From Limnomonas spitsbergensis (lineage: Eukaryota > Chlorophyta > Chlorophyceae > Chlamydomonadales), in NCBI GenBank assembly GCA_037349105.1, contig JAYJMM010000019.1, forward strand, positions 868,001 to 932,000: a stretch of 64,000 nucleotides of DNA, in the 5' to 3' direction. The notes beneath the pieces are model-generated. The model saw only the letters and a list, made by a program, of their open reading frames with translations. It did no database searches and had not been told where the DNA came from. The translations under genes were made by a program, and so were the position numbers. The stretch's first letter is position 1; every line of letters starts with the position of its first letter. Below are positions 11,511 through 59,349 of the stretch, in pieces.

Positions 11511-11858
11511 TATCGTGCCAACGGAGGGGGTAGGAGGGGGCGTAGTGTGGAGGGATTGCCGGGATTGATTGGCTGGGCTGAGGGTGTAGGTGCAAGGATT
11601 GTGGTGGGCAGAGGAAGGAGATTTGCCTGGCCAAAACCGGGAGGGAGCAAGTAGCGAGAAGGGTGGGAGGAGCCGGGGCCAAAGTGGGGGCAAGATATGG
11701 AAAAGTACGGGTTGTATCTCCAAGCGTGTCGGAGATGAGGAGGAGGAGAAGGTCAAATTTCGGCATGCTTGCGTTAGCAATATTGGCCGGAGTGAGATGG
11801 TCGGGGGGAAGAAAAGGTAAATGGGTGTGGTGGAGGTTGGTAAAAGAGATATTGTCGC

Positions 11859-11906
11859 GGCATAGGGGTGCACCCTAAGGAATGGGTGCACCAAGCAAAA
11901 AACGTG
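11859..11906. repeat. 48-bp hairpin repeat, copy 1
   Basis: TGTCGCGGCATAGGGGTGC is followed by two inward GGTGCACC words and AAGCAAAAA. A near-identical copy lies at 28710-28757. The first bases resemble the start of the retrotransposon LTR (TGTCACGACGTATGGGTGC), so this may be a scrap of a related LTR or its flank. Confidence 0.45.
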
Positions 11907-12100
11907 GGGATCTTTGCCACCTTCCCCGGGTTTCTTTTGGTGACTTTACTTTTCTTGAACCCTTTGCTCTTTTTCAGGGTTGTTTTCTTTCGGGAGCGAA
12001 CAACCATCGACGTATCAGTGCGATAACGCACGGTCTGCAACAAATTTTTCTGCCACCGGCAGGTATCGAACTCGCGACCTCTGCTTGATCAGCAGCGTCG
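11907..12100 (-). pseudogene. LINE fragment C, Lys-rich tail
   Basis: The minus strand repeats the Lys-rich end of LINE B: VRYRTDTSMVV, then KKTTLKKSKGFKKSK. The identity with 9049-9230 stops at the word KIP. It is frameshifted near 12045. It is the 3' end of another copy of the same LINE family, arranged in the same direction as B and A. Confidence 0.5.
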
Positions 12101-12387
12101 GTGCTGGGCTGTAAGCGACTGACACCAGTACGGCATCAGTCACGGACGATTACGTTGGGTGGGTGGCGGGCGAGAGTTGTCATCGCCGCGCGGCCAAAAA
12201 GCTTTTCGAATACATATCGCCTACACCCGACGGGTACAATGGAATCGCATTGCTAATGCGCTGCTTTTGATCGAGGCCGCGCTTGCGGTAGAACACTTCG
12301 TGGCAACCCACCCCTGGCCTGTGCATGCGGAGCGTCGTCGTCAGCCGTCGCTTCGGCATAGTAGGTTTGGTGTGTGTCTTTTTTGTT
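12101..12387. other. No recognisable feature
   Basis: The sequence is moderately GC-rich with short chance ORFs only. I see neither repeats nor splice-like exon structure. Confidence 0.3.
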
Positions 12388-12557
12388 TAGGGATCTCCTT
12401 CATGGGAGACTGTAAAAAAAATGTGTATAGAGAAAAAAGTGACTCAAAATTACTAAAATAAAAGTGTCTAGAAAAAATGCCTAAGAATACAAAAGCCTAG
12501 AAAAAAAGTGCCTTTCTAGGCACACTTTTTTACAGTCTCCCATGAAGGAGATCCCTA
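12388..12557. mobile_element. MITE with TA target duplication
   Basis: A 170-bp element has perfect inverted ends: GGGATCTCCTTCATGGGAGA continuing as CTGTAAAAAAA on the left, and the complement on the right. A TA dinucleotide sits at each border (12388-12389 and 12556-12557), as for Tc1/mariner elements. The centre is AT-rich and non-coding. It lies 125 bp upstream of the retrotransposon. Confidence 0.75.
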
Positions 12558-12682
12558 AAAATAATACAAGACAAAGTAACAAGTACTAATAAACTCTTAC
12601 AGAGCTTACAGTAGGAGCTTCTCGATTCACTGCTGTTACTCAATGAAATCAGCTCGGTAACAAATGATAGCTCTAGCTACTT

Positions 12683-13485
12683 TGTCACGACGTATGGGTG
12701 CACCGCACGTATGGGTGGCTTGTACCGCTTTTTGGTTTCGGATTTCATCTGTTTGTGGTACTTAGAAGATGCCTGGCTAATTCCAGGCATTCTTCTCTTC
12801 TTACTCAAGTAACATACCGAAGTTGAATCACCCTGCTATCTGTAAACTGTTCTGGGATTAACGTCCAACTGTGATATTTCGGCCTCTTATCAAGGCCAGG
12901 ACACTGCACTAATAGGAGATCTCTAGTTTACACTACACTGATCCTATTTCTCCAAGACCACATCATTCAGTAATAGGCCCTGATCGTTACACTGATCGAA
13001 TATCTCTAGTTAACCACTACACTTATTCGTGATCTCTAGCATCAGCTTCTCTACTTCATCCATCTCAGCTCTATCTCTCGATTATACCCTACACTGTGAG
13101 CTTCAACAGTTCTATCTCTAGGCTATAATTCGACACTGTGAGCTGCTACCCAGGCCTTTTCTGGCTACCAAGTCGATTTACTGCACCAGCAGCCGATCCT
13201 CCTCATCAAAGAGTCGCCTCTTCGGCTCCTCCTTTCTCATCACTTCGGCTGGATCGACTCTCAAGTCCGTTCCACACCATTTCCTACTGTCAACAGTCGG
13301 CTTCAGTACAACTAGCCCCAGCAGGAACGAGTTCACTTCGCTACTTTTGTCAACAGTAAGAGAGGAATCATCAAAGGTTAGTGCAGTAACCCGAGGATTA
13401 GTCGAGGATAAACTGTCTGCCAGCAGTTTATCGCTCCTGCACACGCTAGTTAACCCCTATAAAGGGCACTTAGCACTCCAATAAG
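12683..13485 (+). repeat. 5' LTR
   Basis: This copy starts TGTCACGACGTATGGG and ends CTCCAATAAG. It matches 27234-28036 base for base as far as I can compare, with equal length. It holds several GATCTCTAG and CACTG words arranged in loose repeats and, near its end, CCCTATAAAGGGC, a plausible TATA-like promoter element followed by AATAAG. LTRs supply the promoter and polyadenylation signal. Small ORFs inside are present in both copies but look like chance. Confidence 0.9.
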
Positions 13486-13620
13486 AAGAGAAGAATCCAG
13501 GTTCGCATCGCTTCGAATCTGCTGGCGAGTAAAAACCGGGAATAAGGAACCAAATCGCTTTCTTAGGCTGAAAAGTGAGCGATATCAGTGACAGACCCTA
13601 GTTTCGTGTTCAATCTCGGA
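13486..13620 (+). other. Retrotransposon leader, possible primer-binding site
   Basis: Between the 5' LTR and gag lies a 135-bp leader. A TGG-starting stretch at about 13524 (TGGCGAGTAAAAACCGGG) could pair with a tRNA 3' end, but it lies almost 40 bp from the LTR instead of next to it. I could not match it to a particular tRNA. Confidence 0.3.
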
Positions 13621-16600
13621 ATGAATCCCGATTCATTCCAGGGAAAGAAGGGGCAGGAGGACCCAATTCCTTCCAAGCCTGTAGTGAATCTCAAGCTCAC
13701 AGCTGCTCAGAGAGATAAAGAGGAATCTGACAAGCAAAAGGCCATGCAGGCCGTTAAAACCCACCAGCAAAAGTTGGAGCGCAATACCAGAGCTGATAAA
13801 GACAGGAGCGCCGACAGTCTGGACCCTCATGAGGCCGAAGTGAGCAGTAAGCTTACCAGGGATGCGTCCGCTGATGCAGGAAGGGAGCCCCCAGTTCAGG
13901 AGGCTAAGCCTCCCAGTGAGTCAGAGCAACGCATTCAGCAGTCGCTAGCCCAGGATCAGGCCGTGCTAGCTAACCAAGCTTACATGAGGTCAAAGGCGCA
14001 GGCAAGGAAACTGGCTGCCGCGGAAGCACTCCATGCCGAACAAGTCCAGCAGCGTCAGCGCGAAATGTGTCGCCTTGATGCAGTACGGCGTGCGGCCGAG
14101 GCGCAGGCCGAGCAGGATGTTGCGGATGAAAAAGAAGTGCAGGCTCACATGATTCGTAGTGCGGATGAGAGGCTTGCGCTGACTCCTAAAAAGGTAGTCA
14201 GGACCCACTATGAGGGCCTTGAGCGAATCGACCAGTTGGTCGACAACCCTGCTTATATCGTTGCACAGGATGATTGTTGCAGCGTGCGCTCATCACCCGT
14301 CCGTGCAAGGACCCAGGGTGCACCGTTGCTTGAGGAAAGGCAGACCTCCCTCCCAGTAATGACCATGCAGGAACTCCCGAAGGTCGCTGGGCCTCACCAA
14401 GCTGCTGACGTGGCTTACCAGATCAACTCCGCCGTCGCTGTCCGTGTACCAGTCGGTTTGGAGCAAGAGGTGATGCACGCGACACCCACAGCATCTCGTC
14501 CAACGGCTGGCGTAGCTGCGCCTGAATGCAACCCCACCCCTTCCTTCGTGAGCGCAATGTCAGGTATGGCCATGCAATCTGGGGGGCGCTCAGGTGAGTT
14601 CGCCCCTGATGGAGGACCGGTACGTCCAGGGCCCGACGGGTACCACGGTAAGCAGGTGAACATGGGGCAGCAGTTAGCTATTGTCACGGGCGACACTGAC
14701 ACCACTGGCGTGGTCACCCGGGGTGAGTTAAGGGATTTGTTGCGGGACCTGTTCGAACGTGGACAGTACATAGGTCGTGCAATACCACCTGTAGTGATGC
14801 TGCAGGAGCAACCAGAGCAGTATGCGCAGCAACACCAGGGGTTTGGAAGCGTTCTGTCAGAGGTAAGCCCGTTCAGTGATTCTCATCACCAGGAAAGGGA
14901 GGGCTTTCCCCAAGGTCAATCGCGGCCCCATGTAGCTGTCCCGCCAGCGCCTGCATACGGAGTACAACCACAGGTAGGCGCAGCTCGGGTTCAAGGGCTT
15001 AGTCATCCCTGGGCAGCTGGGAGTCAGCGACGTCCCCATGACCCGCAAGGGCCCTCGATTCAGGGAGGTCACATACATCGTGTTCCAGAAGGCTCAGGTG
15101 GGGCTCGCTCGGACCCTGATCGGCCTCACGGGGGTTCCAGGTCATCCGGGCAGTCAGGATTCGCCGGAGGTGAGCGTGAGAATGATAGGCCAGATCCCCC
15201 GCGTCGGGAGACTAACGGAAGGTCAAGGGGCCATGGCGGACCCAATGACCCAGATGATCCAGGGAACTCCGGCAGCTGGGACACAGAACCCAACCGGGGC
15301 AATGCGCCACAAGGGAAGGGTTCTCACGGATCAGGTTACCCGGGTGGGCCAGGGGGGTCTGGTGGACCAGGACACGACCCCAGCGCAGCAGCACCCGCAG
15401 GTGATTATGAGTCTGATGATGAGGTGTTCATCAATGACAGGGTGAACGTCCAGTCCAAAAACTTACCCGAGTTCACAGCCATAGCAGGTATGTTGTCATG
15501 GAAGAAGTTTTCCACGGACCTGTACTCCTACGCGGCCGCTGCCAACAACAGCATTGGGAAGGCCTACAAGGTGCAGGTAATGCTCATGTTAGCCAAGTCC
15601 AATCAGCAGGGAGTGGATTTCATGCGGAGGCACATCTCTGATATCACACTGCTGTGCCCCCAAGGAGGCAGGCACCTGCGAGAGGAGTTAAACTTCCGAG
15701 CCACTGGAGGTGGGTTAACAGTGGTGAATGAAACCGTGGAGCTCATGTCCAACATGCGGCGGAACGTCCTAGTCAACATGAACGTGGTGAGTCAGGGCCT
15801 GCTGACTCAGGAGCCATACCCATCCTTCGGAGGTAACAAGAGGAATTTCTGGTACGCTCTGCTGGCGGTGGGCCACCGCTATCTCAATGTGGCTACTCAA
15901 GGTGAGATGAGGCTCTGGCACACAGCCATGAAGATGGGTGCTCCCAACGCCCTGGATCCCACTATTTCACCGCATGAAACGCCCCAGCAGTTCGCTGACC
16001 GCGTGTGCGCCACCTACGATGCCTTCCTGGCCAGCAACAGGGAGGCTTTCCTAGGTGTGTCCGCAAACAGAGCTGAGGTGACAGTGGTGAGGGAGGGCCT
16101 GCCTGTGAGTCTCAAGTTAGCCTGTGACGACGCTTTCAGGAGGGCAGGAATTTACACGTTTGGGCCCAAGGTGTGTTTCGCCAGAGTGGTAGAGGCAGCG
16201 CAGCACGCGTTTGAAGCAGACATGTGGGATGAAGTCGCTGGTACCACTGACAGAGCTGGAGCAGCCGTGGTTAAATCAACTCCCAGAAGTCACGTGGGGG
16301 CACTTGTCCACGAGGAGGAACAGGTACGGGATGGGAATGATCACGGGATAGCCGACTCCTCAGAGGGACGCTCCAGTGCCCTGTGGAACAACGCGACTGA
16401 GGTCAAACCGGTGTACCCCACCACCGTGCACCCGCCCAGAGGGAACCAGGGTGCCATGGGCAGAGGGGGGGCAGTCGGTCAGGGACCACCCACTTCTGCA
16501 CCAAGAACCTACGGGGCAACCATGCCCCCTACACCCAGAACGGGGCCCCCTGCACCTAGACCTCCCAGTCGCCCCAGGATATGCCAACTCTGCTTTGGGG

Positions 16601-16938
16601 ACCACTGGACTGACATGTGCAAAGATTGGCCTGAGTTCAAGGATTTTGTTAACAAAGGGAGGGCCAGCATCGCTAACGGTCCCCTCGGGAAGGACTCACC
16701 ACCCCCCCTCGTGAGAGACTCCCACTTCGGACAGGTGCAAGCTTGGGCGTTCCTGGGGTACCAGGAGCAGCAGGAGCAAGAGCGCCTGCTGCACGAGGAT
16801 CGAGTGGTCAAGCAGTTCGAAGGAGCCTCCAACTCCACACAGGCAGGTGCTTGCGAATACGCAGGTAAGGGCAGGTGGGGTGTCTTGCCTGAGTCCTTCA
16901 ACCACCAGATTGATGTAGACCTCCAGCAAGGAAACTGA
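13621..16938 (+). CDS. gag: Gag polyprotein
   Basis: This frame opens earlier with a GTG at 13588. The first ATG is at 13621, giving about 1,105 residues, which is long for a gag. The N-terminal third is charged and Ala/Gln/Glu-rich, with likely coiled coils (QRDKEESDKQKAMQ onwards). The middle (about 15000-15400) is Gly/Pro/Arg/Ser-rich and probably disordered. A helical capsid-like core follows (15460-16240, starting LPEFTAIAGML). A zinc knuckle, CQLCFGDHWTDMC, lies near residue 1,000 and should bind the RNA genome. The gene ends in TGA followed by CGG. Function as gag rests on position and zinc knuckle rather than on close capsid similarity. Confidence 0.75.
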   Translation: MNPDSFQGKKGQEDPIPSKPVVNLKLTAAQRDKEESDKQKAMQAVKTHQQKLERNTRADKDRSADSLDPHEAEVSSKLTRDASADAGREPPVQEAKPPSESEQRIQQSLAQDQAVLANQAYMRSKAQARKLAAAEALHAEQVQQRQREMCRLDAVRRAAEAQAEQDVADEKEVQAHMIRSADERLALTPKKVVRTHYEGLERIDQLVDNPAYIVAQDDCCSVRSSPVRARTQGAPLLEERQTSLPVMTMQELPKVAGPHQAADVAYQINSAVAVRVPVGLEQEVMHATPTASRPTAGVAAPECNPTPSFVSAMSGMAMQSGGRSGEFAPDGGPVRPGPDGYHGKQVNMGQQLAIVTGDTDTTGVVTRGELRDLLRDLFERGQYIGRAIPPVVMLQEQPEQYAQQHQGFGSVLSEVSPFSDSHHQEREGFPQGQSRPHVAVPPAPAYGVQPQVGAARVQGLSHPWAAGSQRRPHDPQGPSIQGGHIHRVPEGSGGARSDPDRPHGGSRSSGQSGFAGGERENDRPDPPRRETNGRSRGHGGPNDPDDPGNSGSWDTEPNRGNAPQGKGSHGSGYPGGPGGSGGPGHDPSAAAPAGDYESDDEVFINDRVNVQSKNLPEFTAIAGMLSWKKFSTDLYSYAAAANNSIGKAYKVQVMLMLAKSNQQGVDFMRRHISDITLLCPQGGRHLREELNFRATGGGLTVVNETVELMSNMRRNVLVNMNVVSQGLLTQEPYPSFGGNKRNFWYALLAVGHRYLNVATQGEMRLWHTAMKMGAPNALDPTISPHETPQQFADRVCATYDAFLASNREAFLGVSANRAEVTVVREGLPVSLKLACDDAFRRAGIYTFGPKVCFARVVEAAQHAFEADMWDEVAGTTDRAGAAVVKSTPRSHVGALVHEEEQVRDGNDHGIADSSEGRSSALWNNATEVKPVYPTTVHPPRGNQGAMGRGGAVGQGPPTSAPRTYGATMPPTPRTGPPAPRPPSRPRICQLCFGDHWTDMCKDWPEFKDFVNKGRASIANGPLGKDSPPPLVRDSHFGQVQAWAFLGYQEQQEQERLLHEDRVVKQFEGASNSTQAGACEYAGKGRWGVLPESFNHQIDVDLQQGN

Positions 16939-17011
16939 CGGTACTGCCCTGAGGAACAGCCCATTTCCCTGGCAAACACCTTGGGGGGCAGCAAAGGAAA
17001 GATATGCCAAA

Positions 17012-17902
17012 ATGGGAGGGAAATTTTTTCCGGAGTCGTTCGGGAAACCCGCAGGGGTCCCTATTCGAAACGAGGTTAAGAATGTCTGGCATGAGCGACC
17101 TTCGGGTTCGGAGAATCCAAATTTGGACCCAAGAGATAACGTCACCGGGGTGACGAATTCCCACGGTGCAGGATCTGCCAGGTGGCAACCTGTGATAGCC
17201 GTCCCTCCTAGGGTTGAGAGTTACGCCGAGGGTTCAGTAGAGGTTAAAGACGCGGGGGGCAGTGACAGTGATCCTGCTTTCCAGCTGCGTATCCCTGCTG
17301 TGCTCGTCCTTCCATCTGGAGTGAAGAGGGTCCTGCCCGAATCGTTCACGGTAGGTTCCCCCCAGGTGGCTGACCCGGTCATTCTATCCGCACTAGTCAG
17401 CTGTGCACCAGTCATTACTGAATATTTCAAGCGACTTCCAGGTCGTCTGTTCTACTTCCTGAACCCAGTCAACAAACCAAGTGAGTGTGTGGGGATCCTG
17501 ATTCACGATCAGAAGTTCCTGCCTCGCAAGGCTATGCTTGACTTCGGCTCGAACTGTTTCCTGATCACTGACGTCGAGGCTGCGCGCCTCGGTATCCCCG
17601 TTGTATCATATGATATTGCACTGAACACGAGCAATGGCTCTAGCACGATTCTGGGGGTCACTGGACCGATCAGAGTCTCATATGGGTCTGGATCGACTGA
17701 GCTGCGCACAGATCACTGCATGCTGGTGGTCAAAGAACCTAGCAATGCTTCATTTTCCGTTCTGTTCGGAAACCCAGATGGAGCTCAGTACAGTGCTGTG
17801 CATGATGTGGGGGCGGAATCGCTTCGCTTAACCTCTATCGAGCCTCCTTTCGTACTGCAGCTCCCGGTTGTGCTCAGAAGCCCGACCCAAATGCCTGTAT
17901 AG
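17012..17902 (+). CDS. pro: Retroviral-type aspartic protease
   Basis: The 296-residue product holds the active-site strand AMLDFGSNCFLI (Asp codon at 17540), a variant of the D-[TS]-G-[AS] motif. The hydrophobic segments VTGPIRVSYGS and SVLFGNPD follow at the spacing expected of a retropepsin fold. It should cut the gag and pol polyproteins. It is in a different frame from gag and begins at its own ATG 73 bp after the gag stop, so it needs reinitiation, frameshifting or splicing. The ~170-residue N-terminal part is unassigned. Confidence 0.75.
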   Translation: MGGKFFPESFGKPAGVPIRNEVKNVWHERPSGSENPNLDPRDNVTGVTNSHGAGSARWQPVIAVPPRVESYAEGSVEVKDAGGSDSDPAFQLRIPAVLVLPSGVKRVLPESFTVGSPQVADPVILSALVSCAPVITEYFKRLPGRLFYFLNPVNKPSECVGILIHDQKFLPRKAMLDFGSNCFLITDVEAARLGIPVVSYDIALNTSNGSSTILGVTGPIRVSYGSGSTELRTDHCMLVVKEPSNASFSVLFGNPDGAQYSAVHDVGAESLRLTSIEPPFVLQLPVVLRSPTQMPV

Positions 17903-18431
17903 TTTTGCATTTAGGATTAGCTACAGTGCGATTTCCATGGCGTAGCCATTTATACATGTTACCTCACTCATTGCAGTTTACCAGCCTAATCTGTTCCTTC
18001 CCAGGCTGGGGGGGGGATGCTGCCTGCTTATCTCATGAGTACCATGTGCTGATACCAATGTGCTTTCGCCTTCCCAGACCCCGCAGGAGGATCGTCACTC
18101 ATACAAGTGAGTACCCGGACCAGCGTAAGACAGTGTCTGCGAAACCCACGCTAAGTAGAGACCTGCCTCCTTCACGGTAAGGATCGTCCTACGCTTTGTG
18201 GTCGCTACGCGACCAATCCAGGCTCGTAAGTGGGGATTCAAGATAATAAAAAGCTTAAGATAGCATGAGCTTGTAGACAGTTTTGAGAGATTGATCTTCC
18301 CAGATTCCCCAGTGCAAGCGAGCAGTACAAGACATGTCATTAGGACGTGCTCCGTGTCCTTTATCATTCCTTCTCTATGAGAGGGATGTAGTACTTCTTC
18401 CTGACCTACCCTCCTCTATGCCTATGGCTGA
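17903..18431 (+). other. Non-coding gap inside the retrotransposon
   Basis: This 529-bp stretch between protease and the next ORF holds no long frame. It has several in-frame stops in all forward frames and contains CAG- and GTAAG-like words that could be splice sites for a subgenomic RNA. I can say no more from sequence alone. Confidence 0.3.
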
Positions 18432-19839: not shown

Positions 19840-19887
19840 AGGTGCGTGCGGCGCAGGGATTGGGGGCTGAATAAGCAAGTTCTTAGG

Positions 19888-21582
19888 ATGTTCCCCATTC
19901 CCCGCGTTGCCCCCCCGATCGTGGCTCAGCCAAGGTTGCACCAGATAGGTAGCACCCCCCTCCTTCGTGCATTACGCGTGCAGCGCCTGCGGCTTTGGCG
20001 CTCTCGTCTGAACCTAGTCAAGGCAGGCCTTAGGGACAGGAGGTTGAAGCGCAAGGCAGACAGGGTCAGGGAGGCTTCAGAGCTAGCAGTGCGAACTGTG
20101 GTGAACGCTTGCAAACGGGATGAGAGGGTAGCACAAAGCCGGATGAGGTTGGCTCACTGTAAGAAAGTGCGCTGCAACGTGTGTCTGCCTGTCTCTCGTG
20201 CCTTCACTGGCTTCGGCCAAATTGCGCTTGTTGTAGTGCTCACCCTGTTTCTGGTAGTGGGATCAGTCTGGGCTACCCCAGGCCTGACAGCCATGCCCAC
20301 CCTGGCCCAAGAGGCTATCTTCTCCCGCCTCCCGTGTGAGCCGCTACATGATGGGCAGCCCTGGGCTGCTTACCAGAATGATGCTAGCGCCTACCCAGAC
20401 CCGTTCACAGAACCATACCTGCAGCCAGCCTTGGGAATGGGCGATGTCCCGCTGGAAGAGTCGTGGACGTTAGATAGTTTGACCCCTGACAGTCCTGCTG
20501 ACCCCATTGAGCCTGGACGACATCACAAGACTAAGGACGGCTGGACCATGGGGGATCACCCGGATATGACTGTGAGTGACCGGGAGGAATTCTTGGCTGA
20601 GTTGGGGGGGGCCATCAAGGCTGCCAGTGCTTACGAGTTAGCGGACCTGACTGGGTATTGCGGGCGAGTGCCAGATTTCACTATTGGGCCACCCGGAGTC
20701 CCAGTTGTCGTACCCCCCAGCGCAATTGCCAGAAAAAGCAGGCGCCGCTCCCCGTTGGAGACAGATGTCATGAATGAGCACATGGAGCCTCTGTTGGCTG
20801 CAGGATTTATTGAGCCCTGCCCCTATGCCTCACTAACGCACGAAGCTGTGATTGCAGCCAAGAAAGATCCAGCCACTGGGGCCTGGACGGACAAACGTTG
20901 CTGTATCAATTATGGTAAAGCCGCTGGTGGCATCAACGCCTATACCCCACCTGACCCGTACCCGCTTCCCTTGCCTGAGGAATTGTTCGCCCAGACAGCG
21001 GGCAGTAAGTTCTTTTCTGTCTGTGATATGAAGTCTGGGTTTGGGCAAACCAAGCTTGACATAAACTGTCAGCACCAAACTGCGTTCTGGTGGAATCGCA
21101 TGCTCTGGCAAACAAAAAGGAACACGTTTGGGCTGTCTAACATGCCTGCTTACTTCCAACGGGTCATGACTACCACCATAACGGATGCTGGCCTGTCGCA
21201 TTGTTGTTGCTGCTTTATTGACGATGTCCTTATATTTACTAAGGACCTTGCCTCGCACAAGGTGGCAGTAGCTGCCCTGCTTGCTGCATTACAGGCAGTT
21301 GGGCTCAAAGTGCACCCTGGCAAGTGCAAGTTCTGTTTTGATTCAGTTGAGTATCTTGGGCACATGATTGGGTCTGCGGGAATTAGCCCCAGTGAGACAA
21401 AGGTCACTGCTATCAGGGCCCTTCCCACCCCCACCTCCGTGCATGAGTTGCGTAGGGTGATTGGGTTTGCCAATTACTACAGATGTTATGTACCCAAGTT
21501 TTCTGACCTTGCCAGCCCCCTCAACGAGCTGCTCAGAAAAGGTGTCCCGTGGGACTGGACCCCGGAGCGGGACGCGGCATAA
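19888..21582 (+). CDS. pol: Reverse transcriptase (pol, first part)
   Basis: The frame runs from the stop at 19839; the first ATG is 19888. A basic N-terminal region and a single hydrophobic stretch near 20220-20275 precede the RT proper (about 20750-21540). Visible RT landmarks are KKDPATGAWTDKRCCINYGK (fingers), FFSVCDMKSGFGQ with the first catalytic Asp, FGLSNMPAYFQRVM, and the palm motif CFIDDVLIF with the two Asps at 21220-21225, followed by FDSVEYLGHMI and LRRVIGFANYYRCYV. This is the Ty3/gypsy pattern. It ends in TAA at 21580-21582, exactly between the RT connection and RNase H, and the next ORF continues in the same frame. Confidence 0.9.
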   Translation: MFPIPRVAPPIVAQPRLHQIGSTPLLRALRVQRLRLWRSRLNLVKAGLRDRRLKRKADRVREASELAVRTVVNACKRDERVAQSRMRLAHCKKVRCNVCLPVSRAFTGFGQIALVVVLTLFLVVGSVWATPGLTAMPTLAQEAIFSRLPCEPLHDGQPWAAYQNDASAYPDPFTEPYLQPALGMGDVPLEESWTLDSLTPDSPADPIEPGRHHKTKDGWTMGDHPDMTVSDREEFLAELGGAIKAASAYELADLTGYCGRVPDFTIGPPGVPVVVPPSAIARKSRRRSPLETDVMNEHMEPLLAAGFIEPCPYASLTHEAVIAAKKDPATGAWTDKRCCINYGKAAGGINAYTPPDPYPLPLPEELFAQTAGSKFFSVCDMKSGFGQTKLDINCQHQTAFWWNRMLWQTKRNTFGLSNMPAYFQRVMTTTITDAGLSHCCCCFIDDVLIFTKDLASHKVAVAALLAALQAVGLKVHPGKCKFCFDSVEYLGHMIGSAGISPSETKVTAIRALPTPTSVHELRRVIGFANYYRCYVPKFSDLASPLNELLRKGVPWDWTPERDAA

Positions 21583-24500
21583 AACGCTCTCAAGGACGCC
21601 CTGTGCTTGCCTGGTAACGCACTGCGAAACCCCGACCTTGACCGAAGGTATATCTTGCATACTGACTGGTCACAGAAAGGTATGTCTGCAATCCTGGGGC
21701 AGATAGATGATAATGGGCAGGAATTCCTGGTGGCCTGCGTCAGCCGTACATGCAACGTCCATGAAGCCAACTATGGGTCTTATAAAGGGGAGATGCTCGC
21801 CGCGGTCTGGGGAGTGAGGGCCTTTAGGTTCTACCTGCTAGGTGCCAGGCTTCCTTTCTTAATGATCAGCGATCACAAAGGCCTGTCATGGCTTATGTCC
21901 AATAGGGAGCTAGAAGGGCAGTATGCCAGATGGTCTGTCATGCTCAGCCCGTTCTCCTTTGAACTAGAGTATAAACCTGGGGTGAAACACATTGTTGCAG
22001 ATGTCCCCAGCCGGTTCCCTGTTCCCTCTTCCGCCGATACCACCGGTACTAGGGAAACCCACTTTGGTAGTGACTGGCCGGCGCAGCTAGATGAGAGTTA
22101 CTGCAAGAAAGCAAGAGACGATGGACCACATGCCTTTTCACTGATGGCTGCCTGTTTCTCGAGAACGCCGCAGCTACCAGTGACGTGGTCCTTGTCAGCC
22201 ATGGCTCATTCGCTTGGGCACGTGGCAGAGGCCCCTGACTGCCACCCAATCCCTGACGGTGTCCCCGTCCCCCGACCTAGAGTGTGGCCAGGAATAGATA
22301 TCGAAATCACCCGCTCTGAGCCTGTACTGTTTGGTCCTTCCCTGACTTCTCGCATTCAGTGTCTGGCCAACCATTTAGCCGAAGCTCCACCTGTCTGTTC
22401 TCACGCTGGTACGTGTGACCCAGCAAGCGCCCATGCAGTGTTACAGTCGTTTGATGCAGAGATTGCAGGACTGCACTGTTTTGCCACCAATTGTTCAATA
22501 AATGATTCCGTGTCTTTGACCCGTCAACAGGTTGCCCTGCGCACATTAGCTGCTATACAGGTGGAAGCTTGCCTCCTGCAGCTGCGCCGAACACCGGCGG
22601 CCGTTCCCCGGCAACTTGTCGTGGGTACTAACCCCACAGGCGATTTCATTCAATCCATTGATTCTACCCCTGTACATGAGCTTGACCTCGCTGTTGCATT
22701 ACGCGATGGAATATCTCTCATAGAGTTGTTTGGCGGCATGGCCAGTGGCCTGGAATGTGTCCTGCGCAATGGGATTCGAGTGAACCGTTACTTCTTCTGT
22801 GACACATGCGCCTCTGCACGGACAGTGGCACTGTACCGAATGCAACAATTATCTAAAGACCACCCAATGTTGTTTCGAGAGGAGTCTTACGCAGACGCGT
22901 TCTCAGTGCTGCCCCAGGACGTGTATGACATCTCTGAAGCCCACCTAATAAATGCTGGTGCACTAAATGGCACCCAATGGATGTTGATTGCAGGATTCAT
23001 GTGCAACGACCTGTCCTCAGCAGGCAAACGAACCGGGTTGAAGGGTCAACACAGTTCCACTTTCTTTCCTCTGCTCAGAATCCTGGGGACCTTGCAGGCC
23101 ATGCAGCAGCACGCTGCCCTGCCCTTGTATCTAATTGAAAATGTGGCGGTTCAACATGCCATTGCCGCATCCGCTGCCATGCGTGACAGCTTTGTAGAAT
23201 TGAGCGAGCGCCTAGGTGACCCAGTCACCATTGATGCGGCACAGTTTGGCAGCTGTGCACACAGGTTACGTAACTTCTGGTCCAACTGGTGTGACCCCTT
23301 GGCACTGCAGGTGGTCTTGTCTTCATTCGTGAGAGATGAAACGAAGACAGCGGTCTCCCTGTTAGAACGAGGCCGGACTACGCAAATATGTTCGCAGGTC
23401 AACCGACCGCCTTACTACCAAGCAAATGTAATCGGACTTCCACTCATTGTGTTCCCCACCTTCCTTGCCCGACAGCACTCGTGGGCTTACAGTGCACCAG
23501 GGGCGCTCGGTCCTGCTGGTCAGGGACTGGTAATCGACAGTGACCGCGGACTATCTGACCTCACTATTCTGGAGAGAGAGCGCTGCATGGGTTACATGGA
23601 TCATTGCACTGCTGCGCCAGGTATTTCCTTTGCCGCCAGGCACAACCTGACTGGCAGTGCGTTTGACGCAAACGCGGTGAGTCACTTGATAGCGACTAGT
23701 CTTGCCATTCGTCTCACCTGTGACCGTGGGCCAATTTCGTTCACGACTTCGGTTGAAGCCATGCCTGGTCCTGAGCTGGGGGGGGGAAGCAATCAGGAGC
23801 ATCAGGAATTGCATGACAGGATCTGTGCAGGATCCTCCCTGATTTTTCAGTCAGCCCAGGCCCTGGCAGCTGAGAATGAGGATCTGAGTAACTGCCCTGA
23901 CCCCCTGAACCATCTAGATGTCTGGTTGGACGTTGCTGTCATGCAGTACTTGCAGCACCCTGACCCAGACTGTCTAGATCAGAGCACGGCCACAGAACGC
24001 CGCAGGATCTTGAGACGATCATCACATTTTGAGTGGACTGTCAATCAACAGTTGCACAGGCGCATGCCTGGGGGGGGGCTAAAACGTGTACCGTCCCCAG
24101 AAGAACGCATTCCGCTTGTACACCGCATGCACACTGAGAATGGGCACTTCGGCAGACGCCGTACAACGGCTTTAGTCACCCTGAAGCACTGGTGGGTGGG
24201 CCTATGGAACGATTGCAAATTCGTAGTGCAAACCTGCGCAGCCTGTGATTTCACCAAAGCCGCGTTTAATCAGCAGCAGGCCGTGCTCAACCCTCTACCA
24301 ATTAAAGGTATGATGTACCGTTGGCACCTAGACTTGTCTGGCCCATACGCTGTGTCCAACCAGGGGAACAAGTACGTCATGGTCGCTATCGAGAGCTACT
24401 CTAAATGGGTGGAGGTGTTCCCCATGAAGGACAAGTCGTCAGCCGAGGTAGCTTACCACTTCTTGCATGGCATCCTGGCCAGGTATGGTGCCTGTGCTGA

Positions 24501-26481
24501 GGTAGTCACTGACGGAGGAGGTGAATTTCAGGGTGAAATGGATGAACTATTGGTCAGAGCCTTAATAGATCACAGGGTCACCACCCCTCATCACCCGCAA
24601 GCTAATGGGGCCGCTGAACGGCTAGTGCAGACGGTCAAAACTGCATTGTTTCGTCATATGCATGAGGATGAGGCAAATATTAAGTCCTGGGACACATACC
24701 TGCCATGGATTGCCCTGGGCTATCGTGTGACGAAGCATCAAAGCACAAACATGAGCCCGTATCAGCTGCTGTTTGCATGCGACCCTATCATTCCCCCTGA
24801 TGTGATGGAACGAATGCCTGGATTGATTGATACGTTTTTGGATGAAGATGTTGCCGCTGAGCACGTGCTGCAGCGAGCCAAGATCATGGCTGCGGACTGT
24901 GCAATGGCTGGGCAAAATTTGTTAGTTGCCCAGCATCGTGACACGCTAAGGTATGCTAAGCTACGAAGTGGAGCATACCTTCCAAGGATTGTCACGTTCC
25001 AGGTGGGGCAGTTCGTGTACGTCCGCAGCGAGGACAGATTGCATCATACTGCCAGGCCTGTAGTGCTACGAGTACATGATGTACGCCCAAGTGGGGTTTT
25101 GGTGCTGGCTGGCAGGGATGGTCGTACCATATCAGAGAATGTTCTCAATTGCGCCCCTTGTCACTTGCCGATTGAAGAGATGAGAGGGCCGTCGTTGCAA
25201 TATCTACGCCCTTCCTTAGATACGCCATGCGAGGTGTGCCTGTTGCCAGATGTTGACAGGCTGCTTGTCCTGTGTGATTCATGTAACCGAGGCTGTCACA
25301 CCTACTGCATGAAACCACCTTTGAGCAGGGTCCCGAAGGGCAGCTGGGTCTGCGAACAGTGCAAGGCACTTGGTGCCGGCACCCCAGCTCAGCTGACGCT
25401 ACGGGAACAGGCTATGACTGAGGAGAAGCCCAGAGCCAAGAGGGTATCGCTCAAGCCACAGCAAGTCAGCCCATTGCCACCGCTGCCAGCGCCACGGCCG
25501 CCAACTGTACCTTGGCTGAGCTCTGCGCCGCGGCCGGTCCTACGGCCGCGGCCTCCCTCAGAACCACGAGCATCGTCAGCAGTTCCGCCATCGGGCCGGA
25601 CCAGCCAGCAACTTCATATTGCACAGGCTTGCGAACCGCCATCACCCCCGCGGGTGATGGTAAGGCCGCCAGAGGATCACACGTCCTTCCCGGATGGTGA
25701 ATCCTCTCAGTCAGCGAAACCCGCCACGACCACCGTTCCACTGAGACCATCGAGTGGCCGGCCAGTCCGGGTAAGCCGTCTTCCGTTGAGATTGCAGACC
25801 CATCTCACGACGGTACCTGATCAATGCTCACCCGCGATGTTTCTTGACTGGACCACTAAAGACGGTGTCCGCGATGGATTGATGTGGCTGATGCCAGGAT
25901 TATGGGCTGGACGAGACGCTGCAGTCGAGTTAATCATTGCTGAGTTAAACCGTGATCCAAGCATTGCGTTGCCAGAGTGGTCGCCATTATCTGTCATTGA
26001 ATGTGATGTGCTGTGCACCGCTGTTGATTTCAGTCTCTCTCCCAGCGTTGTGCTTATGTGTTCTGAGCCCCGTGTTTCTGTTGCCATGCTGGAGAACCGA
26101 TGGCCAGGTGTCATCACCAACTGCAACGACCCCGCGGGCAGGACGGATTATCACTTGGACCCCATGCAGCCCGCCTCGTATCGGTTTCTGAGGAAGCATC
26201 ACGGTCTCCACGTCATCATTGTCCACCCAGCGGCAGCACTCGAGGACATTCTGCTCGCTGTCGCAGTACACGCAGTCCCACACGTGGTCTGCTGTTTGGT
26301 AGCGGTTAGTTTTCTAAAGTGTTCTCCAGCAAGGTTTGAGTGGCTCTGGCAACTACAGTTGCAGGGGAGGTTGGCCATTAAGGCGGTGTCTGGAAGGCCT
26401 GGGGAAGGAAGTGGTGCTGGGCCTAGGGTGTGGATTCTGGTCTTTGCGTCACGGGAGGGCATGGGGCGCATGCTGCGATAG
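21583..26481 (+). CDS. pol: RNase H - C5 DNA methyltransferase - integrase - PHD finger - tail polyprotein
   Basis: About 1,630 codons without a stop. RNase H (21640-22050): HTDWSQKGMS, KGEMLAAVWG, ISDHKGLSWL, and IVADVPSR. C5 methyltransferase (about 22690-23730): IELFGGMASGLE as SAM motif I, MCNDLSSAG with the nucleophile Cys at 23002, IENVAV as the ENV motif at 23134, and HRLRNFWSNW as motif VIII; the PCNDLS-like motif IV and overall order are closest to DNMT3/DRM. Integrase (about 24090-25170): HRMH...CAAC zinc site, catalytic Asp 24331, Asp 24511 and Glu 24615. PHD finger (25228-25363): CEVC, CDSC, GCHTYC, WVCEQC (C4HC3). A Pro-rich linker and a conserved ~210-residue tail complete it. 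No own ATG lies at the start; expression needs read-through of the TAA or internal initiation. Confidence 0.9.
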   Translation, partial: NALKDALCLPGNALRNPDLDRRYILHTDWSQKGMSAILGQIDDNGQEFLVACVSRTCNVHEANYGSYKGEMLAAVWGVRAFRFYLLGARLPFLMISDHKGLSWLMSNRELEGQYARWSVMLSPFSFELEYKPGVKHIVADVPSRFPVPSSADTTGTRETHFGSDWPAQLDESYCKKARDDGPHAFSLMAACFSRTPQLPVTWSLSAMAHSLGHVAEAPDCHPIPDGVPVPRPRVWPGIDIEITRSEPVLFGPSLTSRIQCLANHLAEAPPVCSHAGTCDPASAHAVLQSFDAEIAGLHCFATNCSINDSVSLTRQQVALRTLAAIQVEACLLQLRRTPAAVPRQLVVGTNPTGDFIQSIDSTPVHELDLAVALRDGISLIELFGGMASGLECVLRNGIRVNRYFFCDTCASARTVALYRMQQLSKDHPMLFREESYADAFSVLPQDVYDISEAHLINAGALNGTQWMLIAGFMCNDLSSAGKRTGLKGQHSSTFFPLLRILGTLQAMQQHAALPLYLIENVAVQHAIAASAAMRDSFVELSERLGDPVTIDAAQFGSCAHRLRNFWSNWCDPLALQVVLSSFVRDETKTAVSLLERGRTTQICSQVNRPPYYQANVIGLPLIVFPTFLARQHSWAYSAPGALGPAGQGLVIDSDRGLSDLTILERERCMGYMDHCTAAPGISFAARHNLTGSAFDANAVSHLIATSLAIRLTCDRGPISFTTSVEAMPGPELGGGSNQEHQELHDRICAGSSLIFQSAQALAAENEDLSNCPDPLNHLDVWLDVAVMQYLQHPDPDCLDQSTATERRRILRRSSHFEWTVNQQLHRRMPGGGLKRVPSPEERIPLVHRMHTENGHFGRRRTTALVTLKHWWVGLWNDCKFVVQTCAACDFTKAAFNQQQAVLNPLPIKGMMYRWHLDLSGPYAVSNQGNKYVMVAIESYSKWVEVFPMKDKSSAEVAYHFLHGILARYGACAEVVTDGGGEFQGEMDELLVRALIDHRVTTPHHPQANGAAERLVQTVKTALFRHMHEDEANIKSWDTYLPWIALGYRVTKHQSTNMSPYQLLFACDPIIPPDVMERMPGLIDTFLDEDVAAEHVLQRAKIMAADCAMAGQNLLVAQHRDTLRYAKLRSGAYLPRIVTFQVGQFVYVRSEDRLHHTARPVVLRVHDVRPSGVLVLAGRDGRTISENVLNCAPCHLPIEEMRGPSLQYLRPSLDTPCEVCLLPDVDRLLVLCDSCNRGCHTYCMKPPLSRVPKGSWVCEQCKALGAGTPAQLTLREQAMTEEKPRAKRVSLKPQQVSPLPPLPAPRPPTVPWLSSAPRPVLRPRPPSEPRASSAVPPSGRTSQQLHIAQACEPPSPPRVMVRPPEDHTSFPDGESSQSAKPATTTVPLRPSSGRPVRVSRLPLRLQTHLTTVPDQCSPAMFLDWTTKDGVRDGLMWLMPGLWAGRDAAVELIIAELNRDPSIALPEWSPLSVIECDVLCTAVDFSLSPSVVLMCSEPRVSVAMLENRWPGVITNCNDPAGRTDYHLDPMQPASYRFLRKHHGLHVIIVHPAAALEDILLAVAVHAVPHVVCCLVAVSFLKCSPARFEWLWQLQLQGRLAIKAVSGRPGEGSGAGPRVWILVFASREGMGRMLR

Positions 26482-27173
26482 TGAGTGATAGCCCGGGTTT
26501 GGGGGTTATCAGCAGGTTTGGAGAGGAACTTGGGGACAATGGGAGATATTAGTGTGAGAAATCTGCGCAGCAGAGGGGAATTGAGGAGATCTAGTCGGGG
26601 CGTTAACGCTGGCAGGTCTAGTGCATCAGAGAGTAGAGTGAAGGAGCACGTAGGGTGCAGGAGACGCGAGCACGCGTGGGATTGCCCGGGGCGCACAAAG
26701 CGAGTTGAGTCAAATAGTGGTATGGGGCGCATAACGCGAAGAGGGATAGAGTACCTGGATAGGTAGGCCTGCCAATAAAGGACGCGTCGTGGAGTGGAGC
26801 CTTGGAGCCGTGGTCGGCTGGCGAGGGATGGACTGATGGGACAATCGACACGGGCGTTGGCGGGGAAGCTGATAGTGTCAAGAGCTGGGGGGGAGAATCT
26901 TGTGGTGTTTGAGTGCAGACGTTATGTTGGCAAGAGGGCTTCCTTATGACCGTCAATGTCGTGCCCCATAACGCCACGTAGCCTACTGCACAACCACAGG
27001 ATTACATGCTATGGATCGTAAACCTCCATAGCATTTTTGAAAGGTAACTGTTTACAGTCCTTTATTATGGCCGTCAGGGTTTCCCCACTGGGGTTTTCAT
27101 CCTGCGAAATTGGCCAGGGAGGTACTTATACAGTCCTCCCTTAATTAAGCTCTTGCATTATGAAGGTCGGACT
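26482..27173 (+). other. Retrotransposon 3' untranslated region
   Basis: This 0.7-kb stretch between the pol stop and the polypurine tract has no supported gene. It reads purine-rich on the plus strand (GGGG and GAGAG words). The minus-strand ORFs here are chance. Confidence 0.4.
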
Positions 27174-27183
27174 GGGGGGGGAG
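27174..27183 (+). promoter_or_regulatory. Probable polypurine tract
   Basis: GGGGGGGGAG (preceded by GACT) is the only strong purine run before the 3' LTR and would prime plus-strand DNA synthesis. It lies 50 bp before the LTR-like identity begins at 27234 instead of directly next to it. Confidence 0.45.
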
Positions 27184-27233
27184 TGTCTTCTGTGCGCAGT
27201 GAAACTTCATGTTCACTGCTGCCTCGTGACAGC
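27184..27233. repeat. 50-bp segment duplicated on both sides of the 3' LTR
   Basis: The block beginning TGTCTTCTGTGCGCAG and ending CCTCGTGACA recurs at 28037-28085, directly after the LTR, but not at the 5' LTR. With the next bases it forms the perfect palindrome GTGACAGCTGTCAC across the LTR start. Its reverse complement starts TGTCACGAGG, like an LTR start. Confidence 0.7.
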
Positions 27234-28036
27234 TGTCACGACGTATGGGTGCACCGCACGTATGGGTGGCTTGTACCGCTTTTTGGTTTCGGATTTCATC
27301 TGTTTGTGGTACTTAGAAGATGCCTGGCTAATTCCAGGCATTCTTCTCTTCTTACTCAAGTAACATACCGAAGTTGAATCACCCTGCTATCTGTAAACTG
27401 TTCTGGGATTAACGTCCAACTGTGATATTTCGGCCTCTTATCAAGGCCAGGACACTGCACTAATAGGAGATCTCTAGTTTACACTACACTGATCCTATTT
27501 CTCCAAGACCACATCATTCAGTAATAGGCCCTGATCGTTACACTGATCGAATATCTCTAGTTAACCACTACACTTATTCGTGATCTCTAGCATCAGCTTC
27601 TCTACTTCATCCATCTCAGCTCTATCTCTCGATTATACCCTACACTGTGAGCTTCAACAGTTCTATCTCTAGGCTATAATTCGACACTGTGAGCTGCTAC
27701 CCAGGCCTTTTCTGGCTACCAAGTCGATTTACTGCACCAGCAGCCGATCCTCCTCATCAAAGAGTCGCCTCTTCGGCTCCTCCTTTCTCATCACTTCGGC
27801 TGGATCGACTCTCAAGTCCGTTCCACACCATTTCCTACTGTCAACAGTCGGCTTCAGTACAACTAGCCCCAGCAGGAACGAGTTCACTTCGCTACTTTTG
27901 TCAACAGTAAGAGAGGAATCATCAAAGGTTAGTGCAGTAACCCGAGGATTAGTCGAGGATAAACTGTCTGCCAGCAGTTTATCGCTCCTGCACACGCTAG
28001 TTAACCCCTATAAAGGGCACTTAGCACTCCAATAAG
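27234..28036 (+). repeat. 3' LTR
   Basis: This is an apparently identical 803-bp copy of 12683-13485, with the same offset from end to end (14,551 bp), hence no net insertions or deletions. It would supply the polyadenylation signal. It is followed immediately by the duplicated 49-bp block and then by an oppositely oriented LTR-like sequence. Confidence 0.9.
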
Positions 28037-28707
28037 TGTCTTCTGTGCGCAGTGAAACTTCATGTTCACTGCTGCCTCGTGACAACTTCACCTGGACTTC
28101 TTCGATACTGTTGACAGGATTCCGTAAATCCTCGACTCCTGAGGTGCTTCTAGACTTCCTGGGACGATCTTGGGCGAATGTGGCCGTTGATCTGCTGTGA
28201 TGAGTTGCTTGCTTGGCGACTTCTGGTGATTGAAGATATCTCTGATTAATCAGATGGTCGACTTGGAGCCACAGGAAAGGCTTTGTAGTGGAGATGTGAT
28301 GGTTGGGTGGTGGTAATATCCAGCTGTAGGACTGGAGATATGCCTAGTTAAGAGGCAGGAATAACTATATTTGTTGCTGATAGTCGACTGTTGGCCTAGA
28401 TGCTCTGCCAACTTCGTATTAGGAGACTTGTTGATGCTTATAGGGTCGCTGATTGCCTAGATGCTCAGCCAGTTTCCCCTCAGTAAGACTTGGTGACAAT
28501 TAACTTGCAGAAGCGATATTCAAGAACAATAGCTGAGAACGTTAAGAGTCTATTGAAGGCCGTGAAATCGCAGACATAAAGAAAAAGTAAAGGACCCGGT
28601 TCGGGATCCTCTAAGACGTCAAACACACGTGTTCATGTTCACACATAACTTCCAACCGAAAAGCGGTTGGCACGATAAAACGCACGGTGCAGCCATACGT
28701 CGTGACA
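28037..28707 (-). repeat. Related LTR in minus orientation
   Basis: Read on the minus strand it starts at 28707 with TGTCACGACGTATGG, almost the same first 22 bases as the main element's LTR, has a similar ACCGCTTTT-GGTT word next, and ends at 28037 with CACAGAAGACA. TG...CA borders and a ~670-bp length fit an LTR of a sister family. The bases just before it on that strand (GACAGC) equal those before the plus-strand 3' LTR. Confidence 0.55.
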
Positions 28708-28709
28708 GC

Positions 28710-28757
28710 TGTCGCGGCACAGGGGTGCACCCTAAGGAATGGGTGCACCAAGCAAAA
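28710..28757. repeat. 48-bp hairpin repeat, copy 2
   Basis: TGTCGCGGCACAGGGGTGC, then paired GGTGCACC words and AAGCAAAAA. It is the second copy of the repeat at 11859 and abuts the minus-strand LTR with a two-base GC spacer, giving the near-palindrome CGTGACAGCTGTCGCG. Confidence 0.45.
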
Positions 28758-28959
28758 AGAATACAAGACATTTCCCCCCCAGATCGAAGATCACTGGAGG
28801 TGTATAAATTTATTTTCAGTAGCGACACTGATCAAGATCTGCATCTTGTTCATTATTCCCCATTGTTCATTGTTCCCCACCCATAGAATTTTTCATCTCC
28901 TCCTTCCGCTGTATCCTTCCACGCCATCGACCACCACCAACTCGGACCTAAATCCCAGC

Positions 28960-29290
28960 TCCAGTGAGCTCTCAAAGCTCCATCCTAATCCCAGCTCCAA
29001 TGAGCTCTCAAGCTCCATCCTAATCCCAGCTCCAATGAGCTCTCAAGCTCCATCCTAATTCCCAGCTCCAGTGAGCTCTCAAGGTCCATCCTAATTCCCA
29101 GCTCCAGTGAGCTCTCAAAGTTCCATCCTAATTCTCAACTCCTTCCCCCCCCAGATCCAGAAGTATATCCCCCCCCCAGCCCAAGCGCAGATCCAGCGCA
29201 GATCCAGCGCAGATCCCACGAAGATCTAGCGCAGATCCAGCGAAGATCCAGCTCCTTCCAGCTCCTCTTTCCGCCGTATCACCACAACCA
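28960..29290. repeat. Tandem repeats in the minus-strand retroelement's 3' region
   Basis: At 28960-29130 a ~37-bp unit with CCCAGCTCCARTGAGCTCTC occurs about five times. At 29180-29260 a 10-bp word AGATCCAGCG is repeated. No coding meaning; the region lies between the pol remnant and the LTR of the minus-strand element. Confidence 0.6.
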
Positions 29291-29353
29291 ATCACCGGAG
29301 TAGATGGAGAAAGCGCAGCTATATACCGGCGCTAGGAAGCAGCGCAGTATTGG

Positions 29354-31045
29354 CTAACGGATGAACGTGTGCATCGGTGGGATCATCCGGGCCCGGATAG
29401 CCGCTGTTGCAAACACGAGGATCCACACCTTGTTGCTGCAACAGCCGTGAATAGATCGGTTAGCGCCAAGACCTGCTGTGAAGCTGACAGACTGCAAAAT
29501 GTCCAGACGCCTTTCTTTCCGTAGTTGGGACAGCCACTCAAACCTTGATGGATGACACGTAAGGAAACCCTGGGAGACTAAGCAACAGGCCACATGGCGC
29601 GCGTACTTGACCGCGAGAGCGCAGGAGATGTCAGCGTATTCAGCATGAGGGTTTGTGATGAGGACATGCAGTCCATGCTGTCGTAGTAGAAACTCGTAGG
29701 TGGAGGGTTGCAGTGGGTCCAGTCAGCACAGTAGTCTGCAGGGACGTTGACACCGATGCCAGAGTTGGTGAGAACATGGAGGGATCGAGGGTAAGGGTAA
29801 AGCTGGCTGTTCTGCAGAAGCCCGGTGGCTTGCCCATTATCCTTGAACAACAAAAGAATGCTGGGGGATAGGGATAGGTCGAGGCAGTCGAGAAGGGTGT
29901 TACATTCCCTGTCTTCAATGGTGAGAGGTGAAGGAGGGTAGAGTTGGTACGACCATCCTCCCGGCATCCTCTTGCCCAAGTAGACCGCAGCTTCATCGCG
30001 TTCCTGCCACACTCCAGGCATCAGAGACTTCAGGGCATTTACCGCATCTCCACGGACACCCCAGTTGATGAAATCTGGGGGCACCCAAGGATGGGTGACA
30101 TGGCTCTCGAACCTTTTGTTGGGGATGCGGATTCTCTCAAATGCACGGGTAGGGCGCTGGTCATCAGGTTGCACCTCCTCGATGATTTCTTCATCGCCGA
30201 CGACTGCGGCGGCTAGCTGCTCCCGCATTGCCATGCGGTCAGCCCTTCCGCCTCCGGCACCGCCATCAGCAGTCCGGACCACCTCACGGCTTCCGGCACC
30301 GCCCGAGGCGGTCCCGGCAAGCTCACCCGCGTTGCTTCCGGCACCGCCCGAGGCGGTCCCGGCAAGACAATCCGCGTCCTCTTCCCCGCCTTCAGCGGGT
30401 CCTTCTTCGTCATCCTCAACTGGGCCACCGCCATTGGCGGCTCCCATCACCCTTCCTGCCTTCTTCTGCTTAGCAGGCCGCAGTTTGTTACCCGTCACGG
30501 CGGCCACTGGTTCCTCCAGTTCCGCCGCAACATCACGTCGTGCAGCACCAGTAGCGTCAGCTCCAGCAGTCCTGCATTGCTCACAAATCCAGTAACCAGC
30601 AGGGACAGTAGTAAGCCGTGGTAAAAACAGTACGTGTGAGTGCCTCGACCACAGCTACCACACAGAATCATTTTCTTAGCATTATCAGGCAACAGACATC
30701 TCTGACGGGAAGTCTGGTGCTGGCTTTTGCCATATTTTGGATGGGGGTAAGAGTCCCTCTATGGGCAGGTGACATGGTGCACAGTTAATAGCGTTCTCAG
30801 CCACAGTCACCCCATTGCGACCAACCAGGACAATGACTCCACCTGGTCGTACATCAAACACTCGAAGCACGTAAGGACTTGCAGTGGAGTGCAGCCGGTT
30901 CTCATCCCGCACATATACACAAACTGCCCCTCAGTATACTTAGCTATTGATGGAAGGTAACCACCACTACGAAGCCTTGCGTACTGCGTAGCGCAGGGTA
31001 TCTCGTTGTTGAGCCACCAGAAGATGCTGGCCGACCATCACGCAG
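29354..31045 (-). pseudogene. Decayed 3' part of a related retrotransposon pol
   Basis: Minus-strand frames line up with the C-terminal third of the main element's long ORF. From 31045: VGQHLLVAQQRDTLRYA and EGQFVYVR (integrase C-terminal region), NCAPCHLPIE, then a damaged PHD finger (ILCGSCGRGTHTYC), a Pro/Ala/Gly-rich linker (30490-30200), the tail domain (SLMPGVWQERDEAA, LDLSLSPSILLL) and RFEWLSQL...KVWILVFA at the end. A 7-bp duplication near 31000 and shifts near 30690, 30500 and 29585 break the frame. Sequence upstream of about 31050 is not related, so RT, methyltransferase and gag are missing. The tail domain is clearly conserved between families. Confidence 0.75.

Positions 31046-33102: not shown

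Positions 33103-59349
<26,247 letters not shown>

Follow-up and report, generated by a model that had tools for sequence, protein, structure and literature searches.

Does a cytosine-5 DNA methyltransferase lie within the pol gene of a Ty3-type retrotransposon of the green alga Limnomonas spitsbergensis, and if so, what might it do there? An earlier note on the DNA analysed here (a stretch of 64,000 nucleotides, hereafter the window) had described a DNMT3-like domain between RNase H and integrase. We read this domain at 22687-23724 of the forward strand, in an open frame of 1632 codons (21583-26481) that contains no stops and has RNase H on the 5' side of the domain and the H2C2 domain and core of the integrase on its 3' side, as had been claimed. 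The motifs follow in the order FGGMASGLE, FMCNDLS, ENV and HRLRNFWSN, and the positions given for them earlier proved exact: the catalytic Cys codon of motif IV occupies 23002-23004, preceded by a Met codon (22999-23001) in place of Pro, and ENV of motif VI occupies 23137-23145, with its Glu codon at 23137-23139. The catalytic Cys, the ENV Glu and the motif VIII Arg are all present in the window domain; motif IV reads Met-Cys, not Pro-Cys.

All of motifs I to X are present in a full-length domain, and their order is that of DNMT3 rather than the permuted one of DRM. Against PDB sequences, a single-sequence phmmer search returned DNMT3A (E 8.9e-13), DNMT3B (8e-8), DRM2 (0.06) and HhaI (1.8), and a 16-sequence family profile returned DNMT3A (4e-17), DNMT3B (3e-14), DRM2 (6e-11) and HhaI (7e-6), the best stretch of DRM2 being confined to the first half of the profile. 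Among PDB sequences, the best similarity is to DNMT3, above DRM2 and above HhaI and DNMT2. The Pfam DNA_methylase profile, suggested earlier as a check, was marginal: the domain alone scored 22.3 bits (E 9.9e-5), just over the cut-off of 22, but within the long frame the score fell short of it, at 19.4 bits. Structure prediction, also suggested, returned a confident DNMT3 fold: the AlphaFold2 model reached a pLDDT of 92.8 and a pTM of 0.91, and all 50 Foldseek matches listed were DNMT3 (best E 5e-19; TM 0.67 by the query model and 0.81 by the target DNMT3 chain). Judged by sequence and predicted fold, the domain is almost certainly a DNMT3-type C5-methyltransferase. It is like mammalian DNMT3A/3B in sequence (E 9e-13), in this predicted fold and in motifs I-X, but has Met-Cys where these have Pro-Cys; moreover, the element frames scanned gave no PWWP or ADD match, and a PHD finger lies far downstream, past the integrase. 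We rejected a viral origin of the domain, as two scans of viral contigs found no relative, and also a bacterial one, as a prokaryote scan brought up only distant C5-methyltransferases among the 80 of 183 matches listed (24-56% identity in best segments, with the higher values over short stretches).

The surrounding element begins with a first copy of repeat A (A1, 12683-13485), which starts TGTCACGA and equals the second copy (A2, 27234-28036) at 803 of 803 bases. All its features lie on the forward strand. A frame of 1119 codons (13579-16938) is probably gag-like, judging by its position and a CX2CX4HX4C zinc knuckle seen by eye; a Pfam scan of this frame gave no match. The following frame (16919-17902) has a weak aspartyl protease match (PF13650, E 0.0024, 19.0 bits, below the cut-off of 24.3), and the reverse transcriptase (RT) occupies 19840-21582 (PF00078, E 1.5e-19). 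The 1632-codon frame then encodes, in order, RNase H (21634-21954; PF17917, E 2.6e-24, residues 18-124), the DNMT3-like domain, the integrase H2C2 zinc-binding domain (24097-24258; PF17921, E 2.9e-10) and catalytic core (24316-24597; PF00665, E 9.3e-11; together residues 839-1005), a PHD finger (25228-25362; PF00628, E 1.9e-9) and a C-terminal domain (25834-26478). With RT, RNase H and then a DDE integrase in Pol, the element is of the Ty3/Gypsy type; the element frames scanned gave no Pfam match up to E 1 to a tyrosine recombinase, which would mark DIRS/PAT elements. The earlier placement inside a Ty3 pol stands for the interval between RNase H and integrase, but RT sits in a separate frame, split off by a single TAA (21580-21582). 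This TAA looks peculiar to the window copy, because two sister copies near-identical to it (C84 and C4:2.42M) are open through this point in one frame of 2213 codons.

The ends of the element depart from the usual LTR arrangement. A G8 run (27174-27181), likely the polypurine tract, stands directly 5' of the first copy of repeat B (B1, 27182-27231), which terminates TCGTGACA and is followed by a GC spacer (27232-27233) and A2; the second copy (B2, 28035-28084), also ending TCGTGACA, forms the right end. A 4-bp target duplication, ACTT, precedes A1 (12679-12682) and follows B2 (28085-28088). The order is that of split direct repeats, A-coding-B-A-B, rather than two identical LTRs at the outer ends; the termini read TGTCACGA...TCGTGACA and the inner B/A junction reads TCGTGACA-GC-TGTCACGA. 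Five further full-length copies with both ends read share this order and the 4-bp duplications. Overall, a 4-bp duplication at TG...CA ends was found in 10/10 insertions with both ends shown (six full, four solo A-B), a count that leaves out three near-identical copies: C109, whose right end is unresolved, and C94 and C119, which end in an inverted A piece. In these last two (loci L031 and L033), B-A is followed by an inverted A-start piece of about 120 bases that replaces B2, and in C84 (locus L019, 656-3837) a pair of A repeats, together with adjoining body sequence, is arranged head to head with about 360 bases in between. Plus-strand DNA starting at the G8 run would make B-A the ordinary LTR, whereas the element as integrated begins and ends at the B/A boundary; a circular form opened at that boundary would yield the ends observed. 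G7-G9 runs occur in the element at 16465-16471, 18008-18016, 20604-20611, 23778-23786, 24070-24078, 26887-26893 and 27174-27181, four of them, including one just 3' of the DNMT domain, within coding frames, and are possibly extra polypurine priming sites.

Other features of the window were also noted. The element interrupts an older one on the minus strand (11853-12682 and 28085-30654), which belongs to a second DNMT subfamily and has the insertion in its A repeat. The B repeats of this older element (11853-11901 and 28710-28758) are 98% alike, and its C-terminal frame (29581-30654) shares 76-78% identity with five host copies; host locus L067 shows its A repeat uninterrupted. By eye only, a minus-strand frame at 10842-11477 resembles the RNase H of another retroelement, and minus-strand frames at 46954-51708 resemble exons of a host gene for an AAA ATPase. 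The stretch from 60850 to the window end at 64000 is a long, G-rich tandem array containing very long runs of G. An Rfam scan of the window gave no match at gathering scores.

Is the domain a one-off insertion, the outcome that the earlier note had set out as telling against its reading? In the 260-Mb L. spitsbergensis assembly, at least 111 places match the domain, a lower bound from the 111 of 950 candidates that were scored. By hand count, the identities of the 111 fall at 94% or above (13 places), 83% (1), 64-71% (11) and 52-58% (86), and in 90 of them the match is free of stops. The substitution of Met for Pro in motif IV, pointed out earlier, is real: 28 distinct copies from the host were read (the window copy being locus L001, and L045 being read by eye as FMCSDMS), and all of them have F-M-C as well as Glu-Asn; in three (L006, L041 and L043) the domain is broken by a stop.

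The host copies also allowed us to estimate selection. NG86 dN/dS of the DNMT domain had medians of 0.085-0.097 in three dS bins spanning 0.1-1.0 (93 pairs, with 261 of 378 pairs set aside for saturated dS), and the domain is under purifying selection, with dN/dS about 0.09. Compared by region, medians were 0.019 for integrase, 0.034 for RNase H, 0.067 for the PHD finger, 0.089 for the C-terminal domain, 0.090 for DNMT, 0.117 and 0.149 for linkers and 0.345 for a proline-rich linker, each on 5-10 pairs (DNMT 10, proline-rich linker 9, C-terminal domain 7). The domain is therefore kept, though less tightly than the integrase. Among copies, C/T differences at CG exceeded those at CHH 1.8-fold, but transversions were raised at CG too, 2.3-fold, so that the substitution contexts carry no clear sign of methylation. 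CpG observed/expected was 0.67 in the element and 0.53-0.78 in three other stretches of the window, so that the depletion is not specific to the element.

Relatives of the element were abundant. Protein searches directed at the DNMT domain recovered 29 and 62 polyproteins. An RT search gave 1674 matches; the DNMT profile matches 108 of the 120 listed, over nearly the full length in 100 and in part in 8, and 92 have a near-full domain with the catalytic Cys, in a search that favours DNMT-bearing relatives because its query, P0029, is itself DNMT-bearing. Even read with that bias, the description of such elements as rare is too strong within this clade, and together with the host copies these matches exclude a one-off insertion. 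The 12 listed proteins without a DNMT match comprise four from an arthropod outgroup, five DNMT-less relatives and three without integrase (P0091, P0109 and P0164), which may be truncated. The source organisms named among the relatives listed are Chlamydomonas eustigma, C. reinhardtii, Pleodorina starrii, Tetrabaena socialis and Haematococcus lacustris, most rows being nameless. The order RNase H, DNMT, integrase held in all 83 relatives in which both landmarks were found by pattern. On this sequence evidence, the element is a member of a widespread Ty3-type clade, so far named from chlorophyte algae only. In an RT tree of 160 sequences, the host copies group with C. eustigma (0.995), the sister copies standing for the window's own RT, which was left out. 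Distances between RT and DNMT domains agreed moderately (Spearman 0.38 over 8385 pairs from 130 proteins), and some domain exchange may therefore have occurred.

We then compared the domain itself across 177 proteins (172 retrieved, four reading frames from host copies and the window frame). DNMT matches were found in 165 of them, a fraction biased upward because many of the 172 had been retrieved by this domain, and 155 near-full domains were kept. The Cys, the Glu and the Asn are each present in 147 of the 155, and the motif VIII Arg in 150. The residue before the Cys varies far more (n=147): Glu in 69, Pro in 65, Met and Ser in five each, Asp in two and Ala in one, with all five Met-Cys domains coming from the window's own genome. 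One clade of eight near-full and two partial domains (support 1.0) has lost Cys and Glu-Asn together, and motif VIII residues in part; it includes P0117 of the laboratory alga C. reinhardtii and a Pleodorina protein. In five relatives, which form two small groups (P0113/P0149/P0159 and P0122/P0152), the DNMT domain is missing although RT, RNase H, integrase and PHD are all there, and RNase H and H2C2 are some 210-220 residues apart, as opposed to about 715 in the window; this absence may reflect gene models that splice the domain out.

Two further domains of the long frame bear on what the element carries. A dedicated profile of the PHD finger matches 141 of 173 relatives. The C-terminal domain has a class I methyltransferase fold in the predicted model and resembles N6-adenine methyltransferases in a fold search, the only search with significant matches; an hmmsearch of its alignment against PDB gave nothing significant (best E 0.14), and Pfam MethyltransfD12 matched weakly (best E 0.031, 4 of 13 members). 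The motifs DPF.G.G and (N/D/S)PP(Y/F/W) are degenerate in the window copy; among relatives, P0073 and P0074 carry the C-terminal motifs, and motif-bearing relatives read DPFAGSG and SPPF. DIRS elements are described as carrying Dam-type (N6-adenine) methyltransferases (PMC5890265 and PMC6338049, each in its available portions), to which this second, amino-methyltransferase-like fold may be likened, except that both motifs are degenerate in the window copy.

Retrotransposons with C5-methyltransferases have been described before: KnitGypsy-Dnmt3, SymbioDIRS-Dnmt3 and SymbioLINE-Dnmt (de Mendoza et al. 2018, PMC5890265, here and below by the available portions of the paper). A further paper mentions DNMT3 in retrotransposons of streptophytes and dinoflagellates (PMC12344493, available portions), and another states in general terms that Ty3/Gypsy and DIRS elements with methylases are found in green algae, among others; its available text has no description of the present family (PMC6338049). 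The nearest published kind is KnitGypsy-Dnmt3 of Klebsormidium nitens, also a Gypsy/Ty3 element with a DNMT3 domain in its Pol frame, a DIRS-like repeat order and purifying selection on the domain (Ka/Ks < 0.2; PMC5890265). Compared by its published description, it differs in having a charophyte rather than a chlorophyte host; the term PHD is absent from the main text of that paper, whereas our element has a PHD finger, and the portions available describe neither a second methyltransferase-like domain nor target duplications, both present here. SymbioDIRS-Dnmt3 of Symbiodinium likewise has DNMT3 in Pol and split repeats, but it encodes a tyrosine recombinase in place of the DDE integrase and belongs to a distantly related retrotransposon class (PMC5890265). 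The literature searched, mostly papers outside subscription, yielded no description of Ty3 elements forming a chlorophyte clade in which DNMT3 is combined with PHD and a second methyltransferase fold.

These likenesses raise the possibility that the present clade and KnitGypsy-Dnmt3 go back to one DNMT3-bearing Ty3 ancestor, or to transfer between algae, and not to separate captures. The shared Gypsy type, DNMT3 in Pol and DIRS-like repeats, matched here by A-coding-B-A-B, speak for it (PMC5890265), as does a published survey of 12 algal genomes, cited in the available portions of PMC9861306, in which DNMT3/DRM homologues occur in one red alga and one charophyte only, and in no chlorophyte. 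However, no Klebsormidium protein was named among the matches listed in our protein searches (for RT, 120 of 1674), most rows being nameless, and the captures in the charophyte and in dinoflagellates were, as inferred in the 2018 paper, independent events (PMC5890265). Common descent or transfer is a credible scenario that we nonetheless lean against.

What, then, might the domain do? The DNMT3-type domain would be made as part of Pol and would sit in the particle or integration complex beside RT, RNase H, integrase and the PHD histone reader. There it would methylate cytosines in newly made element DNA, or at the chromatin target, and such methylation would let a new copy enter a tolerated, methylated state. 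Taken as a whole, a Ty3-type element with a Pol-borne DNMT3 writer acting by self- or target-methylation is the best explanation, one that we consider somewhat probable. For the narrower claim, that the domain catalyses self- or target-methylation, we would put the chance at slightly short of even; self-methylation of element DNA is our leading mechanism, and it is unproven. The conserved catalytic residues, the selection and the activity of SymbioDIRS DNMT3 domains, which methylate CG de novo in yeast (PMC5890265), support a role in methylation. Against a required catalytic role stand the Cys-less clade, the two DNMT-less groups and KnitGypsy DNMT3, which gave no methylation in yeast, a result that its authors call inconclusive, as DNMT3B also failed (PMC5890265). 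That Pro is replaced by Met in every one of the 28 host copies read also counts against the methylation reading.

The same substitution would fit a domain that is mainly a structural or nucleic-acid-binding part of Pol, such as a spacer, a SAM sensor or a DNA or RNA grip for the integrase, with catalysis secondary or lost. Such a role would also accommodate the recurrence of Pro, Glu, Ser, Asp and Ala before the Cys, the clade that retains the rest of the domain without Cys and Glu-Asn, the inactivity of KnitGypsy DNMT3 in yeast (PMC5890265) and the second methyltransferase fold of the same protein, which has degenerate motifs and yet a dN/dS of 0.089 (7 pairs). A purely structural role, however, needs none of the Cys, Glu and motif VIII Arg that are kept in 147-150 of 155 domains, and we regard this alternative as unlikely. 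That the domain is a functionless passenger undergoing decay is very improbable: a stop lies inside the match in 21 of 111 host places (hand count), the window copy has a stop after RT and two groups lack the domain, but a dN/dS of about 0.09 over a wide divergence range, against a value near 1 if neutral, largely rules out decay, and 108 of the 120 RT relatives listed have the domain.

The preferred reading, a Pol-borne DNMT3 writer, can be extended to the history of the clade. Before the sampled lineages diverged, the clade may have carried a Pol-borne chromatin kit, consisting of a DNMT3-type writer, a PHD reader and an amino-methyltransferase-like fold, in elements that would integrate by a DDE enzyme from a circularly permuted intermediate, with the writer dead but kept in one lineage; if chlorophytes lack a host DNMT3, that of the transposon may be the only DNMT3 left. 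We offer this extended scenario as a conjecture about which we are more doubtful than confident.

The DNMT3-like identity and the Ty3 setting proposed for this locus are backed by sequence, fold and copy evidence. To the DNMT3 retrotransposons published from a charophyte and dinoflagellates, our analysis adds a large chlorophyte clade with many subfamilies. The A-coding-B-A-B order, combined with 4-bp duplications, raises a separate question of how such elements integrate, and the variation among Pro, Glu and Met in motif IV bears on how strict the requirement for Pro is in C5-methyltransferases. The clade as a whole bears on what a retrotransposon gains from a DNA methyltransferase of its own, and since it contains natural catalytic-dead and DNMT-less members, one of them in C. 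reinhardtii, a comparison of natural variants in a laboratory alga is possible.
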